64,000 nucleotides of DNA. Source: Terebella lapidaria. Taxonomy: Eukaryota > Annelida > Polychaeta > Terebellida > Terebellidae. The notes beneath the pieces are model-generated. The model ran no database searches, was not told the DNA's origin, and saw only the letters and a list, made by a program, of their open reading frames with translations. The position numbers and the translations under genes were made by a program. Position 1 is the stretch's first letter, and each line of letters begins with the position of its first letter. The stretch covers positions 55,572,451 through 55,636,450 of the forward strand of contig OX424556.1 of assembly GCA_949152475.1 (NCBI GenBank), given 5' to 3'. This document shows, in pieces, positions 6,640 through 58,498 of the stretch.

Positions 6640-7740
6640 GTTAGAAAGGTCACTGGTTAAATTCAAGGTCAAAAGAATATTCAGCATATATAATATTAAG
6701 CGTATATCATGTCCACAGTTGATTGCTAAGCTATAAATTCAATATTCAGAGAGATATTAGCAATTTTGTGCTGTGGTCTTGAAAATGAAGGCAAAGGTCA
6801 AACTCAAGGTAATCAAAATATCCAGTGTATATCATTTTCTATATGTCCACAATTGATTCCCAAGCCATACAGTCAATAGAGGAGCAAGATATGATCCATT
6901 TTGTCCTGTGACCTTGAAAATAAGGTCAGAGGTCAAATTCAAGGTCACGAGAATATTCAGCATATATCATTTCCAATATGTCCACAATTGATTTCTAAGC
7001 TGTAAAATCCATAATAAGTGAGATATTAGCCATTTTGTCCTGTGACCTTGAAAATGAGGTCAAAGGTCAGATTCAAGGTCATGACAATAATCTGCATATA
7101 TCATTTCCTATATGTCCACAATTGATTCTTGAGCTGTAGAGTCGATAATAAGCATATATCATTTCCTATATGTCCACAATTGATTTCTAAGCTGTAAAAT
7201 CCATAATGAGTGAGATATTAGCCATTTTGTCCTGTGACCTTGAAAATGAGGTCAAAGGTCAGATTCAAGGTCATGACAATAATCTGCATATATCATTTCC
7301 TATATGTCCACAATTGATTCTTAAGCTGTAGAGTCGATAATAAGCGAGATATAAGCCATTTTGTCCTGTGACCTTGAAAATCGGGTCAAAGGTAAAATTC
7401 AAGGTCATCAGAATATTCAGCATATATCATTTCCTATATGTCCACAATTGATTCCTAAGCTGTAGAGTCGATAATAAGCGAGATATAAGCCATTTTGTGC
7501 TCTGACCTTGAAACTGAGGTCAGAGGTCAAATTCAAGGTCACGAGAATATTCAGAATATATCATTTCCTATATGTCCACAATTGATTCCTAAGCTGTAGA
7601 GTCGATAATAAGCGAGATATAAGCCATTTTGTGCTCTGACCTTGAAAGTGAGGTCAGAGGTCAAATTCAAGGTCACGAGAATATTCAGCATGTATCATTT
7701 CCTATAGGTCCACAATTGACTCCTAGTCTCTAATCTCAAT
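6640..7740 (+). repeat. ~134-bp satellite array inside element B
   Basis: About eight units like those of element A. A local copy event is visible: the block from gcatatatcatttcctatat through gattcttaagctgtagagtc is nearly repeated at 7093-7150 and 7285-7345, so unequal exchange has acted within the array. Confidence 0.85.
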
Positions 7741-7796
7741 ATCAAGTGAGATATTAGGCATAATGTGTCCCATTATAAAGCATAGGATAATTTAAC

Positions 7797-8027
7797 ATGG
7801 GAAAGTCCCATTTGGGCCGAGTTTGGGCCAAAATGGCCCACTTCGAGCGATTCAAGCGCAACAAAATTTATAGACATCATAGGAGTACACATGAGGAGTG
7901 TTATGTATCAAAAAGAAAAAAAGTTACAGGGCAGATTTTGAGAAAATGGCCGCCAAAGTCCAAAATCAGGCATTTTTCGTCGAAAACGATCGCCATTTTG
8001 AAAAAAATGCGAAAATCAAAAACCTAA
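7797..8027 (+). other. 76-codon basic frame in element B
   Basis: The frame opens MGKSHLGRVWAKMAHFERF and closes KKMRKSKT. It has the same length as the frame at 62,938-63,168, with scattered substitutions and no length change. No signal peptide, membrane segment or known domain is visible. Whether it is ever translated is unknown. Confidence 0.2.
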
Positions 8028-8215
8028 AAAATACCTCCTTCTTGAATTATCTTTAAGTATTTTTGTGCAAAATTTCAGAAAAATTCGCCCGTAAACAAAA
8101 AAGATAAAAATGTGGACGACGACGACGACGACGACGACGACGGACGACGGACGACGGACGCAACGCCATGCCAATAGGTTATCGGACCATAGGTACGGTA
8201 ACCTAAAATGCGAAA

Positions 8216-8378
8216 TTGTAAAAAAACAAATCCTCTCTTTTCAAAAAGTTCATTTTTGTTCATATTTTTAAAAAAAGGACCGTAAAGATAAAACTGTTGA
8301 AGGACGATGAACGGTTGACAGATGAAGGACGCAAAACCATGCTCATAGGTTATCGTACCACAGGTCCGGTTATCTAAG
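8216..8378 (+). mobile_element. Remnant right end of the same family
   Basis: A degenerate right terminus: a short A-rich stretch, a decayed ggacgatgaacgg tract, gcaaaaccatgctcatagg, and a hairpin remnant ending ggtccggttatctaa. The rest of the element is absent, leaving an end fragment beside element B. Confidence 0.6.
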
Positions 8379-8499
8379 AATACAACAGTTATATATGTTG
8401 TCTGCTTTGGACAGAGAACCAACGCACCATCGACATACGTGTGTGTACTAAACAGTTTCGGTGATCTGAGCATCCCATTGCCGTTTATGAGCCAATCAC

Positions 8500-52668: not shown

Positions 52669-53115
52669 AGTAATTACTGTAGTTCCTACTCCGAACGTTG
52701 GGTCTACCCCCTGTTCGTCATCTACCCCATGAAAGTGCGCCACCGGCGGTGGCGGGAGATTTTGTCGTATGAATAAACGCGATATCAACACAGTTTTGTT
52801 TTATTTACAAGACAAGTATGATACCAAACACCAAACAATCCGCAAGACTAAACTTGAAATCCATGGACAAAATTTACACAATCGGTATGTTAAGGTTGGA
52901 CAAAAATTCAAATTGGTGATCAAGGTCCGAGCAATTTGAATAGCTATGACATCTTATCTATCAAATACCTGATTATTTCCACACAGCTCTTTGTATGATC
53001 CTGTCGATGGCTCTTCAAACAATCACGGTCACAATTTTGAAAGCACAGAGATCCGCCATCTGTGTATGCCACTCGATCACGTGACCGGTCATGTGATCGT
53101 TTCAGGGATGATGTG
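52669..53115 (+). repeat. Left long terminal inverted repeat
   Basis: It aligns with the reverse complement of 58,161-58,498 over shared blocks such as tctacccc, gtgcgccacc, ggtggcgggag, gaataaacgc, atatcaacacag, caaatacctgat, caaacaatcacggtcacaat and ccatctgtgtatgccactcg. About 130 bp (near 52,815-52,950) is present only in this arm. It contains two palindromes, CGCCACCG/GCGGTGGCG at 52,738-52,754 and a 26-bp one at 53,074-53,099. Confidence 0.9.
53074..53099. promoter_or_regulatory. 26-bp palindrome with CACGTG, 70 bp before the helicase start
   Basis: CGATCACGTGACC then GGTCATGTGATCG, one mismatch between arms. It contains a CACGTG E-box and recurs in the right arm. Its position just inside each end suggests a transposase or host-factor binding site. 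That role is inferred from placement only. Confidence 0.4.
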
Positions 53116-53167
53116 AAATTCGGAATCTGATTTATCGAATGGTTTCACACGTGTTCATGTTCACAAC

Positions 53168-55729
53168 ATGGAGCAAGAATTTGATTCAGTTACAGCACTG
53201 TACTGATGGGATGTAAATTTTAAATTGAAATCACAACAGCTTAGTATTATTAAGAAATTAAAACAAGGGCTAATGTGTTTGCCATTCTGCACACCGGCTA
53301 TGACAAAAGTATGGTATATATTATGCCTGCAATTACTGGCATGGGAATATCGTTAGTAATATTCACTCTTCGAGCCTTGATGGGGCACCAAGCTGCGCAG
53401 CTGTCCTCAAGTCAATGGCGTACCCACAGCAATAATCCGGAGGGGGGACATAGACCCATTGGTGCTGGAAGGCACGTACATAACTAGATTATGTATATAA
53501 GCCATAGAGATTATCGTAGGCCCCTATTTGTAATCATTGATATATTTTCTTAAATTTTAACTAGTACATCATGAGAAAATTCTATACATAATACAACTCT
53601 GGACTAAAATATTTTCGTAATGTAGACAAACAATTATCTGAGATTTGAACGCACACTCAATTTAATAAAAACAATCTGGCACGCCTACTGTAAGTATGCA
53701 TTTGGCGCTAATTTGCACACGTTTTTAGTTTATGTGTCATTGTTGAAATTATAAAGGTATACAAAATTCCCTTCGCTTGACCTGAAGCAATTTTGGAGGA
53801 GAAGTGGCACGACCTCACTGAGAGCTACCAAGGCTAGCTATTACTGATAGCAATCGACGATGTACAGTTTGTGCTAGAATGGTACGTTGCACTCGATTGG
53901 TTTTTGTGTAAACACTATTTATTCTGATTGATCAACAGACAAAGCCCATATGTAAACAGTTTTTTTTTCTAGAAGTTGGTTGTGGCCACAACTACATATA
54001 AAGCTTTTTGATATTATTACTAGTAGATCACTGAATTCGCAGTATCTGCTTTTGTTCAGTGTTCTACTAGTAATAAATTTAATAAGCTTCGAAAGCATGC
54101 AGTTATGGATAACTATTATGTGTACAACTGATGAACACATCCTAATGATTATTGTTGACCACTAAAAATACATTTCAGGGGCAGGAAGACTTTCCGAAAC
54201 GAATTTCAAGAACTGGGTAAGTTAGGGTCCCTATTTACGGACAACCCATGGTTGATGCTAACTGCCACTATCACCGAGGCCGAACTTAAAGCCACGTTGG
54301 GGGTGCTGGATTTCCCTGCCAGCACAGCTGACAACGAGGCTGTCTTTCCGGACCGGCCTGATATAGTCATGAGATACCATGACCGCCCGGGAATGGACTA
54401 CAAGTGCGAAGCGGAGCTGAGGCCAGTGTTGGAGGAACTGCGGACAAAGGGCCCTCTGGTAGACAAAACGGTCATTTATTGCAAGTGTGTACTTTTGTAA
54501 TAGTTGTGTTCATTCAGTACGCCACATGGGCATATTTTAATATCATGAAATTGCGTTAGATTATAACCAATCTGACAACGTGAGTACTCGGAACACCTTT
54601 TTAGATGCTCCTGTGCTCCATCTTCGAAAATTGTGAATCAGGAATATCAATTTACGTGGTCGAGAGTCTTATTACACATCTGCATGATTTCCCTTTAAAT
54701 TTGGTAGAACTAGGATTAATATAATATATAATATAATAGAGTCAGAAACAGTTCAATGTATTTCCAATGTTTTAAAATGCACTATTTTTAAATATATTTA
54801 TTTCCATACATGAACCTTCATTTTATCAAAAGCCATATACAATAATATTGTCACATTGATTGAGCATTTTTGGGTGTCACCAGGGTCTCCTAGCTGATGC
54901 AAAGCGCATACGCCTACGTATATCTCGGCCAGATACTTAGCCATCTTACTGCTGGAAAAAAATCAATATTGGCAATTAAATTACTTTGTATCTTCCAAAA
55001 CAAACATGAACCAGCCGCTAAAGATTTTCCTGCTCCTTCTCGAGGTGTACATGTAGCATATGACTGAAGTGCCAAAAAACGAATTCAATTTTGTATACCA
55101 AGTATTCTGATTTGACAGAACCATCAACGGAGTATCTGACATATATGGGTTATCGGCGTCGGAGCTCGGGCCTGCAGCATACGTCGGTGGGCAAAGAGAC
55201 CCAGAGAGGCGGATTGTAACCACGTTCCGTGGCAACACACTGACGGAGTCCATGGAAAGAACCATTCGTCCATTCAAAACTAAAGACTACATGATTAGAT
55301 TGTAGTAGCCATTGTAGCCTTTGGGTTGGGCGTGTCCATCCCAGATACAAGGTGCATTAATATTTGGGGTATGCTAAGTACTCTGCAAACATTATGGCAG
55401 ATGGTTGGGCGGCTGCTAGAGATGGCCAGTCGGGCCAATGCAATATCTTTGTTGTACGTACGATTATGAAATGGGAGCCGAACCCCGATGCTCAGGTGGA
55501 AGAGGTAGTAACACAGTTGCGTGAAAGCTCTGATCAGTGTGTCAGGGTCTCGGTGCTGCGCATGTTGATGACAGAAGGGATGGACGAGAAGAAATGTGAT
55601 CAGAACTGCAGGCGCAGCTCTGATCACATTTGCAGCTGCTGCAACAACTTTGCAGCTGCTGCAACTTGTGCAGACACCGTTGCTTGTGTCAAAGTGCAGG
55701 ATGTTTATATTGTTCTGGGAGACCATTAG
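53168..55729 (+). pseudogene. RecQ-family DNA helicase, four exons, decayed
   Basis: RecQ proteins unwind DNA 3' to 5'. Exon 1 (53,168-53,487): start MEQEFDSV, Q-motif region FKLKSQQLSIIKKLKQG, motif I HTGYDKS (normally GYGKS), LRALMGHQAAQL. Exon 2 (53,757-53,881): PEAILEEKWHDL and motif II region IAIDDVQFVLEW (normally DE-H). Exon 3 (54,179-54,484): motif III LMLTATIT, VIYC. Exon 4 (55,119-55,729): ELGPAAYVGG, motif V AFGLGVSIPDTR, motif VI QMVGR/AARDG, then a Cys-rich piece (HICSCCNNF) like the RecQ zinc module. Introns 2 and 3 are GT-AG and keep phase (GAATG/GGGCAGG reads EWGR). Several stops and about four frame changes, plus altered catalytic motifs, mark it as dead. It starts 53 bp inside the left inverted repeat. 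Confidence 0.85.
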
Positions 55730-56499
55730 TCAAATATGCTTGGCGCTTTATCTTGTGTAAAGGATTCCCTGTCAAAACGGGGAGATTATGCAGTAGTGTA
55801 CATTTGACATGTGACAGAATGTACTCACACAAGTAAAACAACATCTGCCTTGAACAGATTAAATTTATATTATCTTTGTTGCACATTTTCTGTGACTGTG
55901 CATGTACCACATATCCATATATATTCATATGTCATGAAAAGAAATACATATACACATATAGGTGTTTTTCCATTAAGGTTTTTGTTGCGACTAACCAGAC
56001 CTCTATCTGTCAAGTTTCTGTACGTTATTTCCAGCCGACCAGACCATTGTCTGTCGAGTTTTACGGCCAGCAGATCGAATCCGGTATCACATATCCACAC
56101 ATAAATTCACATGTCATAAAAAGAAATACTAGTACATAAACTTACAGGCAAGATACTCCATAATGCTTGTATTTAATGGCGTTGAGTATATATAGAAAGA
56201 CGTGGAATCAATGCCCAGTATTAAGTATTCCGTGCCAACAAAACAGGGTCCGCTATCCAATCTCATAGTTCGGGGACAGAAAGTCAAATCAGGCATACGA
56301 AGTGATAGAAGACAAAAATGACAGGGAAACTCATGAACCCCGCTAAAAATGGCCATTAGGAGGTGAAATCAGGTGTTCCGGAAATAGTGAGCATTTCCTG
56401 CCCCACTAGTGGCACCCGTCATGAATTTATGCATAGAAGAGTATCTCTGCATTATGTTCTTTCTGGCTTAACAGACCGCTGCCTGTCTATTTTTTTTGC
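55730..56499. other. Spacer between the convergent genes
   Basis: No coding motif is seen. A ~40-bp block (cacatatccatatatattca, tgtcatgaaaagaaatac) at 55,908 recurs at 56,085, and a ccagacc...ctgtc block repeats near 56,000, 56,040 and 56,465, so part of the spacer is a ragged tandem repeat. Confidence 0.5.
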
Positions 56500-57361
56500 T
56501 TATTTTAGGAGTTTTGCCTTGAATTTATCCGGATAAGGAATGTGCTTTAGCTGTGATGTGTTACTAGGGAAAGCTGTATTACATTGACCTGGGATGTGTG
56601 CGAACAGTTTGTCCTCCTTGTACTCACGAACCAGTTTTCTGATATCGTTCTGTTGCGAGTCTGAACGGCGCTTCCTTCGCGTCACCCCCTCCTTGTCTGT
56701 GATGTTTGTCTCGTACAGTTTGTTGATGTCTCTCGCCACAGCCCCCCACCACGCTGCTGCTGCGGGCCAGTGTATGAATGTATGCTCTCATGTGAATTTG
56801 TGGTAGTGTCTATTTTACATTTATTGTTTCACGTGATTGCATGATTTACCCATGAAGGCATGATTCAGGAATTCATTATACAGGTCCATCTCGATGTTGT
56901 TACCTGCCCTGGAAACAAAACTCAGCGTGCGATTCCATCGAATTACATGTGCTAGTGCGTAAGGGAGCCACCCAACTTGTCCTATGAATGAATTAAGATC
57001 GAACTGTCGTAGACCTTAAGTAATGTTTGTCATAAATAAGGAATGAAAAAATGGATAACAGTTTCGTTTGCACAACAGAACCCCAAGACTGGAAGAATGG
57101 CACACACTCGACCAGCAGAAGCATCACCTGTATAACGATACATGTACGTTCGCGCATCACTGCGAGGTCATCTGGGGATGGCAAGACATCTGTCAGGGCA
57201 ATGTCGACTGACCATATGTTGAGCCTCCTCAGGTGCGGGAACTCGGTTTTCCACCGCGTAGGCATTGCCCCAAATTAGGAATCGATCTTGATTTTTTGCG
57301 GAAGTGGTGTGCCTTGTCTTGACATTTTTTATGTTATCCCAGCAAAAGGAGAATCCAGGAG
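56500..57361 (-). pseudogene. DUF6589-like transposon protein, C-terminal exons
   Basis: Exon at 57,361-about 57,030 opens after a TTTGCAG acceptor: GFSFCWDNIKNVKTRH, RFLIWGNAYAVENRVPAP, then after a frame change VDIALTDVLPSPDDL. Exon 56,908-56,850 lies between TTTCCAG and GTAAATC and reads GNNIEMDLYNEFLNHAFM. A last exon, about 56,800-56,500, has WWGAVARDINKLYETN and ends KFKAKLLK. The WDN...RH...W-NAYAV-NRV order and the 'I-LDL-NEFLN' block are what I recall of DUF6589, a domain common in invertebrate and fungal transposons. The N-terminus would lie in 57,480-58,150 but is not identified. Function as transposase is inferred. Confidence 0.55.
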
Positions 57362-57479
57362 CTGCAAATATAATGCACATGAGTATACCAGTGTAAAAGT
57401 TTAAGCAACACCAAAATGGATAAAATGATAGTTGGATTTGCCAATCTTGTTTTATGATATGACAAATACTAATTTCACA

Positions 57480-58160
57480 CATTTCTCAGCTGCTAGAAGT
57501 CCAAAGAACGGTTCGTCAGTTTAATGTGGATATACACATTAAAAGATATACATAATATACAACTACATTCAACTATGTCACGTACTTACTTAAGATCGTT
57601 TTCGTAGTTCATTTCCTGATTGACACTTCATAATTGAGTTATTTCTCGATTGTGCGTTATTTATAAAGGCAGTGTACAGATAACGGTCATTCCCTTAGGG
57701 GCTCGGTATTTGGCAGATCTTACGCTGAGACACGAATGATGGGACATCGGAGAGACGTTTCCGGATCTGTGCACCAGTTTCGTCAACTTTGCACCTATAC
57801 TAGGGCTAATTGCGTTGTTGGACTGATCCGCGATACCAGCAGGGCTATCAAAGTTTATGTCGAGACTGTTTATGGCCTTTTTTATGTCGTTTTCAGCTTA
57901 CGAAATGGGCACATCATATTAGATTTGGGGGTAATGGTACTAATGAACCGCCATATAATTCATAACTTGGAAATTTTAAGTACTTCTAGAGTACTTGGGA
58001 ACATGACATATTTTCCACAGATATAATTACAATATAGATGGAAAAAACTGCATACTCAGAACGCGAATAAGATGTCAGTATGTTGCATTTTGTTTGGATT
58101 TCCCTTTACACGTAGTCAGCAACGAAGCTGAATTTTATATTATACCAGGTATGGTGACGT
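57480..58160. other. Interior beside right arm, unassigned
   Basis: The expected N-terminal exons of the minus-strand gene should be here. A minus-strand reading near 57,700-57,860 (FDSPAGIADQSNNAISP) is open but unrecognised. Nothing is firmly supported. Confidence 0.35.
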
Positions 58161-58498
58161 CACATCATCCCTAAAACGATCACACGACTGGTCACGTGAT
58201 CGAGTGGCATACACAGATGGCGAATGTGCTTTCCAAATTGTGACCGTGATTGTTTGAAATGCCATTGACAGGATCATACAATTAGCTACGTGGAAATTAT
58301 CAGGTATTTGACAGATAAGAAGTTATAGTTTGTAAATAAAACAAAACTGCTGTGTTGATATTGCGTTTATTCACAAGACAGAAGCTCCCGCCACCATCGG
58401 TGGCGCACTTGCACGAGATCATTTATAATGCACGAACACGAACGGGAGGGGGGTAGATCCCACTTTATGAGCATGAACTATAATTACTGCATCCATAT
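58161..58498 (-). repeat. Right long terminal inverted repeat
   Basis: Inverted partner of 52,669-53,115. It retains both palindromes (58,177-58,202 and 58,389-58,405). Palindrome changes differ between arms: the left has GGTCATGTGATCG where the right has GGTCACGTGATCG. Confidence 0.9.

Follow-up and report, generated by a model that had tools for sequence, protein, structure and literature searches.

A decayed helicase-carrying DNA transposon of probable AcademH type in Terebella lapidaria, with convergent RecQ and DUF6589 genes

A transposon lies at positions 52680 to 58480 of the window analysed here, a 64,000-nucleotide stretch of the genome of the annelid Terebella lapidaria (C2:55572451-55636450, in an assembly of 761.6 Mb and 438 contigs). 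Its inverted arms are the two ends of one element, bounded by a 9-bp target-site duplication (TSD), and it carries remnants of a RecQ-type helicase gene and of a gene for a protein of the Pfam family DUF6589, a pairing that recurs throughout the genome. The element is very probably a decayed DNA transposon of the AcademH type, with the DUF6589 protein most likely acting as its DDE transposase. In its fuller form, found on contig C4, it measures about 11.1 kb; the inverted repeats are about 320 bp long, the termini are TAG...CTA, and the two spliced genes are convergent.

The outer ends of the window element read TAGTTC...GAACTA, and the perfect 9-bp TSD TAATTACTG was found directly outside both of them; the chance of one given 9-mer duplication at random is about 5e-6. 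The arms are co-linear over the whole interval from 52680 to 58480 and pair in inverted blocks of 104 nt (88% identity), 66 nt (94%), 64 nt (88%), 32 nt (78%) and 20 nt (100%). The top inverted match between 51501 and 59800 reached 222 bits, compared with a maximum of 38.3 bits in 50 simulated sequences of identical first-order base statistics. The left arm contains an insert of about 130 bp, on which 36 of the 44 listed matches to the arm fall. A first-pass annotation, made from the letters of this stretch, had already seen the inverted arms, which proved real. It had placed the element at 52669-58498, an interval that contains it and overshoots by 11 and 18 bases, and had anticipated a duplication of 3-8 bp at the outer ends; the duplication is there, with a length of 9 bp. 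The features of the window copy are as follows.

52671-52679, no strand: left TSD TAATTACTG (9 bp)
52680-53116, no strand: left terminal inverted repeat, starting with TAGTTCCTACTCCGAACG
52812-52941 (approximate limits), no strand: unrelated abundant repeat inserted in the left arm, not in the C4 copy
53168-53473, + strand: first exon of the RecQ helicase, covering the Walker A region, split between two frames and interrupted by one or more in-frame stops; its C4 counterpart matches Pfam DEAD (3.1e-13)
54180-54485, + strand: middle exon of the RecQ helicase, with the LTATIT motif, open; 83% identity with its C4 counterpart
55111-55621, + strand: exon for the C-terminal domain of the RecQ helicase, with motifs V/VI, in three frames; its C4 counterpart matches Helicase_C (3.1e-11)
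56503-56787, - strand: probable further DUF6589-gene exon, downstream part; C4 counterpart 54% identical, with stops in C4
56848-56976, - strand: exon of the DUF6589 gene that bears N..DLxxE, whose E is a candidate catalytic residue, from tblastn and alignment
57164-57365, - strand: exon of the DUF6589 gene that bears WDNI, whose D is the candidate first catalytic one, in two frames
57766-57825, - strand: upstream DUF6589-gene exon remnant of 20 residues, from tblastn
58160-58480, no strand: right terminal inverted repeat, ending with CATGAACTA
58481-58489, no strand: right TSD TAATTACTG (9 bp)

The exons were placed on the window by tblastn, mostly with exons of the C4 paralogue as queries; those for 56848-56976 and 56503-56787 were derived from the window, and their counterparts were afterwards detected in C4 (86% and 54% identity). 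RecQ-type helicase exons were located on the + strand and DUF6589-gene exons on the - strand, in agreement with the first reading of the sequence. When eight translated fragments of the window were compared with Pfam, no helicase or DUF6589 match was obtained (a single irrelevant match had an E value of 0.17), and therefore the identities of the window genes rest on the C4 paralogue. The exons for the second acidic residue and the PHD finger found no match in the window in tblastn with C4 exons, and the DNA bearing them is gone, as the joined C4 slice 6707-8408 has no counterpart there. The phase-keeping introns described earlier were not confirmed, given the two frames and stop of the first RecQ exon, the three frames of the last one, and the split and missing exons of the DUF6589 gene. 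The window copy is dead and, with both of its genes broken, non-autonomous: the RecQ gene is frameshifted and the DUF6589 gene has lost its central exons. With its worn ends, it could at most be mobilised by the proteins of another copy.

The independent copy at C4:29800372-29811475 (11,104 bp, TSD GTGTGACCC) has both genes, convergent and inside the same termini as in the window, and its two ends are about 97% identical to each other. Among eight C4 pieces run against Pfam, four matched above the curated cut-off: the + strand gave DEAD (3.1e-13) and Helicase_C (3.1e-11), the - strand DUF6589 (1.2e-10) and PHD (1.2e-7). The other four, the counterpart of the RecQ middle exon taken alone among them, gave no match. 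In the profile search of the genome, the DUF6589 match was at C4:29806988-29807212 (3.2e-7). The PDB chains that best matched the C4 helicase exon were those of RecQ4, WRN and RECQ1. The first-pass annotation had proposed a search for other arm pairs and a profile search of their interiors: the C4 pair encloses helicase and DUF6589 genes, and the domains were recovered from its interior but not from the raw window fragments.

Perfect 9-bp duplications flank all three independent long copies with two ends, the third being a 2.7-kb element at C2:15948006-15950739 (TSD GGAGACATA) that has only its outer ~79 bases in common with the C4 copy. A further copy lies on C14, where the 24.5 kb examined yielded inner pieces and a single end but not the other end. 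A duplicate of the window insertion, flanks included, is also present on C2 at a distance of about 0.36 Mb (99.2-99.7% identity); it does not count as independent evidence because it has its TSD and flanks in common with the window copy. The arms might instead be a short unrelated element present by chance on both sides of host genes, since the ends also occur without these genes in palindromes of about 50 bp described below and, apparently, in the 2.7-kb element. We consider this hardly credible: the TSDs match across the whole unit in both the window and C4, which refutes it, the C4 arms enclose the same two genes, and RecQ-DUF6589 pairs are recurrent in the genome.

This recurrence was measured with searches that returned 76 matches for PF20231 and 150 for the C4 RecQ exon, both lower bounds, as only the best candidates were scored. 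A scored RecQ-type match was present within 15 kb of 50 of the 76 scored DUF6589 matches, compared with about 0.45 expected if their places were unrelated, and the pairs were convergent in 40 cases, divergent in nine and tandem in one. Together with the C4 termini that enclose the same convergent pair, this supports the earlier proposal of a single mobile element carrying both genes. The linkage ties DUF6589, a Pfam family of unknown function, to helicase-carrying transposons, and makes its possible role as a DDE transposase directly testable. The divergent pairs (C12:19539789-19544168, C1:90164411-90168787 and seven more DUF6589 matches) are possibly a separate lineage. The best DUF6589 match of the genome, at C17:25861721-25863040 (L035), has a 559-aa open frame, and any scored RecQ-type match is more than 3 Mb away from it.

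When six DUF6589 stretches were aligned, one of them the joined C4 exons, columns of R, N, D and E were invariant; the R of the C4 row sits in the PHD region and is probably misaligned, and the N..D(L/M)xxE motif is clear. The D of a GD/CD motif was common to all three rows that cover that site. In a six-row alignment without the joined C4 piece, 13 columns were invariant, N, D and E included. In both C4 and C383, the last two acidic residues have a PHD finger between them, which in C383 scores 19.4 bits, below the Pfam cut-off of 24. From these acidic residues and the PHD finger between the last two of them, we infer a DDE transposase with an insertion, which is the most likely identity of the DUF6589 protein with its embedded PHD finger. 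Such a transposase would bind the outer ~25 bases of the element, cut at the TAG/CTA ends and insert them into the target at nicks staggered by 9 bp. The RecQ helicase would probably open the ends or aid unwinding, repair or processing of the products.

The same convergent pair is carried by a second family, B (C4:27953915 onward), whose start base is identical in four copies (C1, C4, C5 and C17) and whose right end was compared for C4 and C1. TAG...CTA is a possible reading of its termini, which lack a long inverted repeat, none having been found in the first slices examined, and its duplications are CTGAGTTGA on C4 and CTTATATCG on C1. As a separate observation, the two ends of family B are unlike each other and each has a strong hairpin from about 12 nt inside the TAG (L071 from 3415; L072 up to 5349; L074-L077).

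Terminal inverted repeats are general for transposons of this kind. The window element was assigned to AcademH because a helicase and a 9-bp TSD together are the AcademH combination. According to the accessible parts of two papers, AcademH TSDs are of 9 or 10 bp and those of AcademX of 3 or 4 bp, a difference seemingly tied to the helicase carried by the former and the nuclease carried by the latter (PMC10045372), and AcademH is linked with Pfam DEAD and Helicase_C (PMC10799480). The TSDs TAATTACTG, GTGTGACCC and GGAGACATA agree with this length, and the C4 helicase has both domains, with RecQ-family chains ranking first in PDB. The element would therefore be a new member of a group already described in 2020; comparison with Academ, the first suggested for this sequence, was well chosen, and the distinct lineage also suggested finds no support at superfamily level. 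AcademH hosts are reportedly animals and fungi, to judge from the title of Kojima's 2020 report. In the accessible parts of PMC12730594 and PMC12210899, AcademH appears just as a reference.

Several points weigh against this assignment. It was made by published descriptions and not by transposase sequence, and the DUF6589 protein L035 had no match by sequence in PDB. No scored RecQ-type match lies within 15 kb of 26 of the 76 DUF6589 matches, the best-scoring one included; the 50 paired ones take mutual copies as separate, so that independent events are fewer, and two of them, on C7, use a single RecQ match. The duplication of family B has an ambiguous length: it is 9 bp if the element ends in CTA, and 7 bp if it ends in CTACT.

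A distinct undescribed superfamily that converged on a helicase and a 9-bp TSD, with DUF6589 as a new type of transposase, was weighed and is considered unlikely. The term DUF6589 was not found in the literature searched, and the available AcademH descriptions hold no convergent genes, PHD finger or TAG...CTA ends with which the layout and the PHD inside the DUF6589 region could be compared. Nevertheless, both TSD length and helicase agree with those descriptions (PMC10045372, PMC10799480), and in the accessible literature no other superfamily was found to join the two. AcademX, which would belong to the same superfamily if the AcademH assignment holds, was rejected, as its nuclease and 3-4 bp TSD (PMC10045372) are replaced here by a helicase and 9-bp TSDs.

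An element of the KolobokH type, that is, a Kolobok transposon with a RecQ helicase, is very improbable. KolobokH does encode such a helicase, and in one rhodophyte Kolobok it lies on the complementary strand; in the accessible text of the same source, however, KolobokH is reported from fungi only, with the helicase downstream of the transposase (PMC9587614). The TSDs described here are 9 bp long and vary in sequence by site. In contrast, Kolobok and KolobokH elements duplicate TTAA. Helitrons have neither terminal inverted repeats nor a TSD, and the present element has both. A helicase is the trait that it has in common with them (Helitrons are also named in the accessible part of PMC10799480).

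Returning to the AcademH-type element, its ends were also found almost by themselves. The pattern TAGTTCATGCTCCGAAC-N0-30-GTTCGGAGCATGAACTA, an exact match biased toward young copies, occurred at 70 places in the genome, compared with none for the reversed control, and longer versions (gap 31-61) at three. Flanks were read at 40 of the 50 places listed, the second 20 of which were picked so as to cover the odd lengths, which makes the proportions those of a non-random sample. Eight of these 40 were separate single sites on C1, C2, C3, C7 and C8 (L088, L099-L105), with palindromes of 49, 50, 51, 51, 52, 52, 52 and 60 bp that contain little beyond the two outer ends; their 9-bp duplications were perfect in six and matched at 8/9 positions in two. 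The remaining 32 (L106 and L111 by eye) lie in one dispersed host repeat, inside which a 50-bp palindrome was amplified, with the common duplication TCATGGAGC (perfect in 28, 8/9 in four). A 34-bp palindrome of the ends was also seen within another shared repeat on C16 (L059 9823-9856) and C2 (L060 4381-4414), flanked by 9-mers that match partly.

A tentative reading, to which we give somewhat less than even weight, is that DUF6589 is an AcademH transposase that needs only the outer ~25 bases, and hence that the 49-60-bp palindromes are mobile themselves; as part of it, the outer bases of the best-preserved ends form a hairpin that begins 12-13 nt from the TAG terminus. Allowing no more than one change, four of the eight single sites (L099, L101, L102 and L105) conform to a single 52-bp form, as judged by eye, which favours mobility of the short unit itself; the other four fit it less simply. 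It is possible that the single-site palindromes arose by deletion in place, and, by eye, the 50-mer would be explained equally well if DNA between CCC repeats in the two ends had been deleted. Snap-back copying of one end at the hairpin was also considered, and was weakened by family B, where hairpins are stronger and yet exact matches to such palindromes numbered 0 and 0, a weak argument given the few B copies. If mobile as such, the palindromes would be some of the smallest TSD-flanked DNA transposons in any eukaryote and, to our knowledge, among the smallest DNA transposons of any kind; a narrow search of the accessible literature found no equivalent. End-only derivatives of about 50 bp would set the DNA minimum for such a transposase and bear on the origin of the smallest miniature transposons.

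The hairpins were compared with 300 single-base shuffles per end, the right ends of family B being one base short in this test. None of the 300 shuffles attained the score of the family-B ends (two distinct ends, four rows). For the nine ends of the first family, the score was attained by 6-11 of 300 shuffles in four, by 40 in one and by 125-271 in the other four, which are unremarkable and include both window ends. Therefore, a terminal hairpin is not established as universal to all ends.

The C2 duplicate of the window copy contains an 8.17-kb insert at C2:55993521-56001686 (L034/L055), with inverted TAG...CTA ends of about 390 bp, the 3-bp TSD TTA and a nested Gypsy-like pol remnant. Its 389-aa frame had no match in Pfam or PDB. 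A frame in this insert resembles an XPG-type nuclease in its motifs, and the insert is possibly an AcademX element nested inside an AcademH one.

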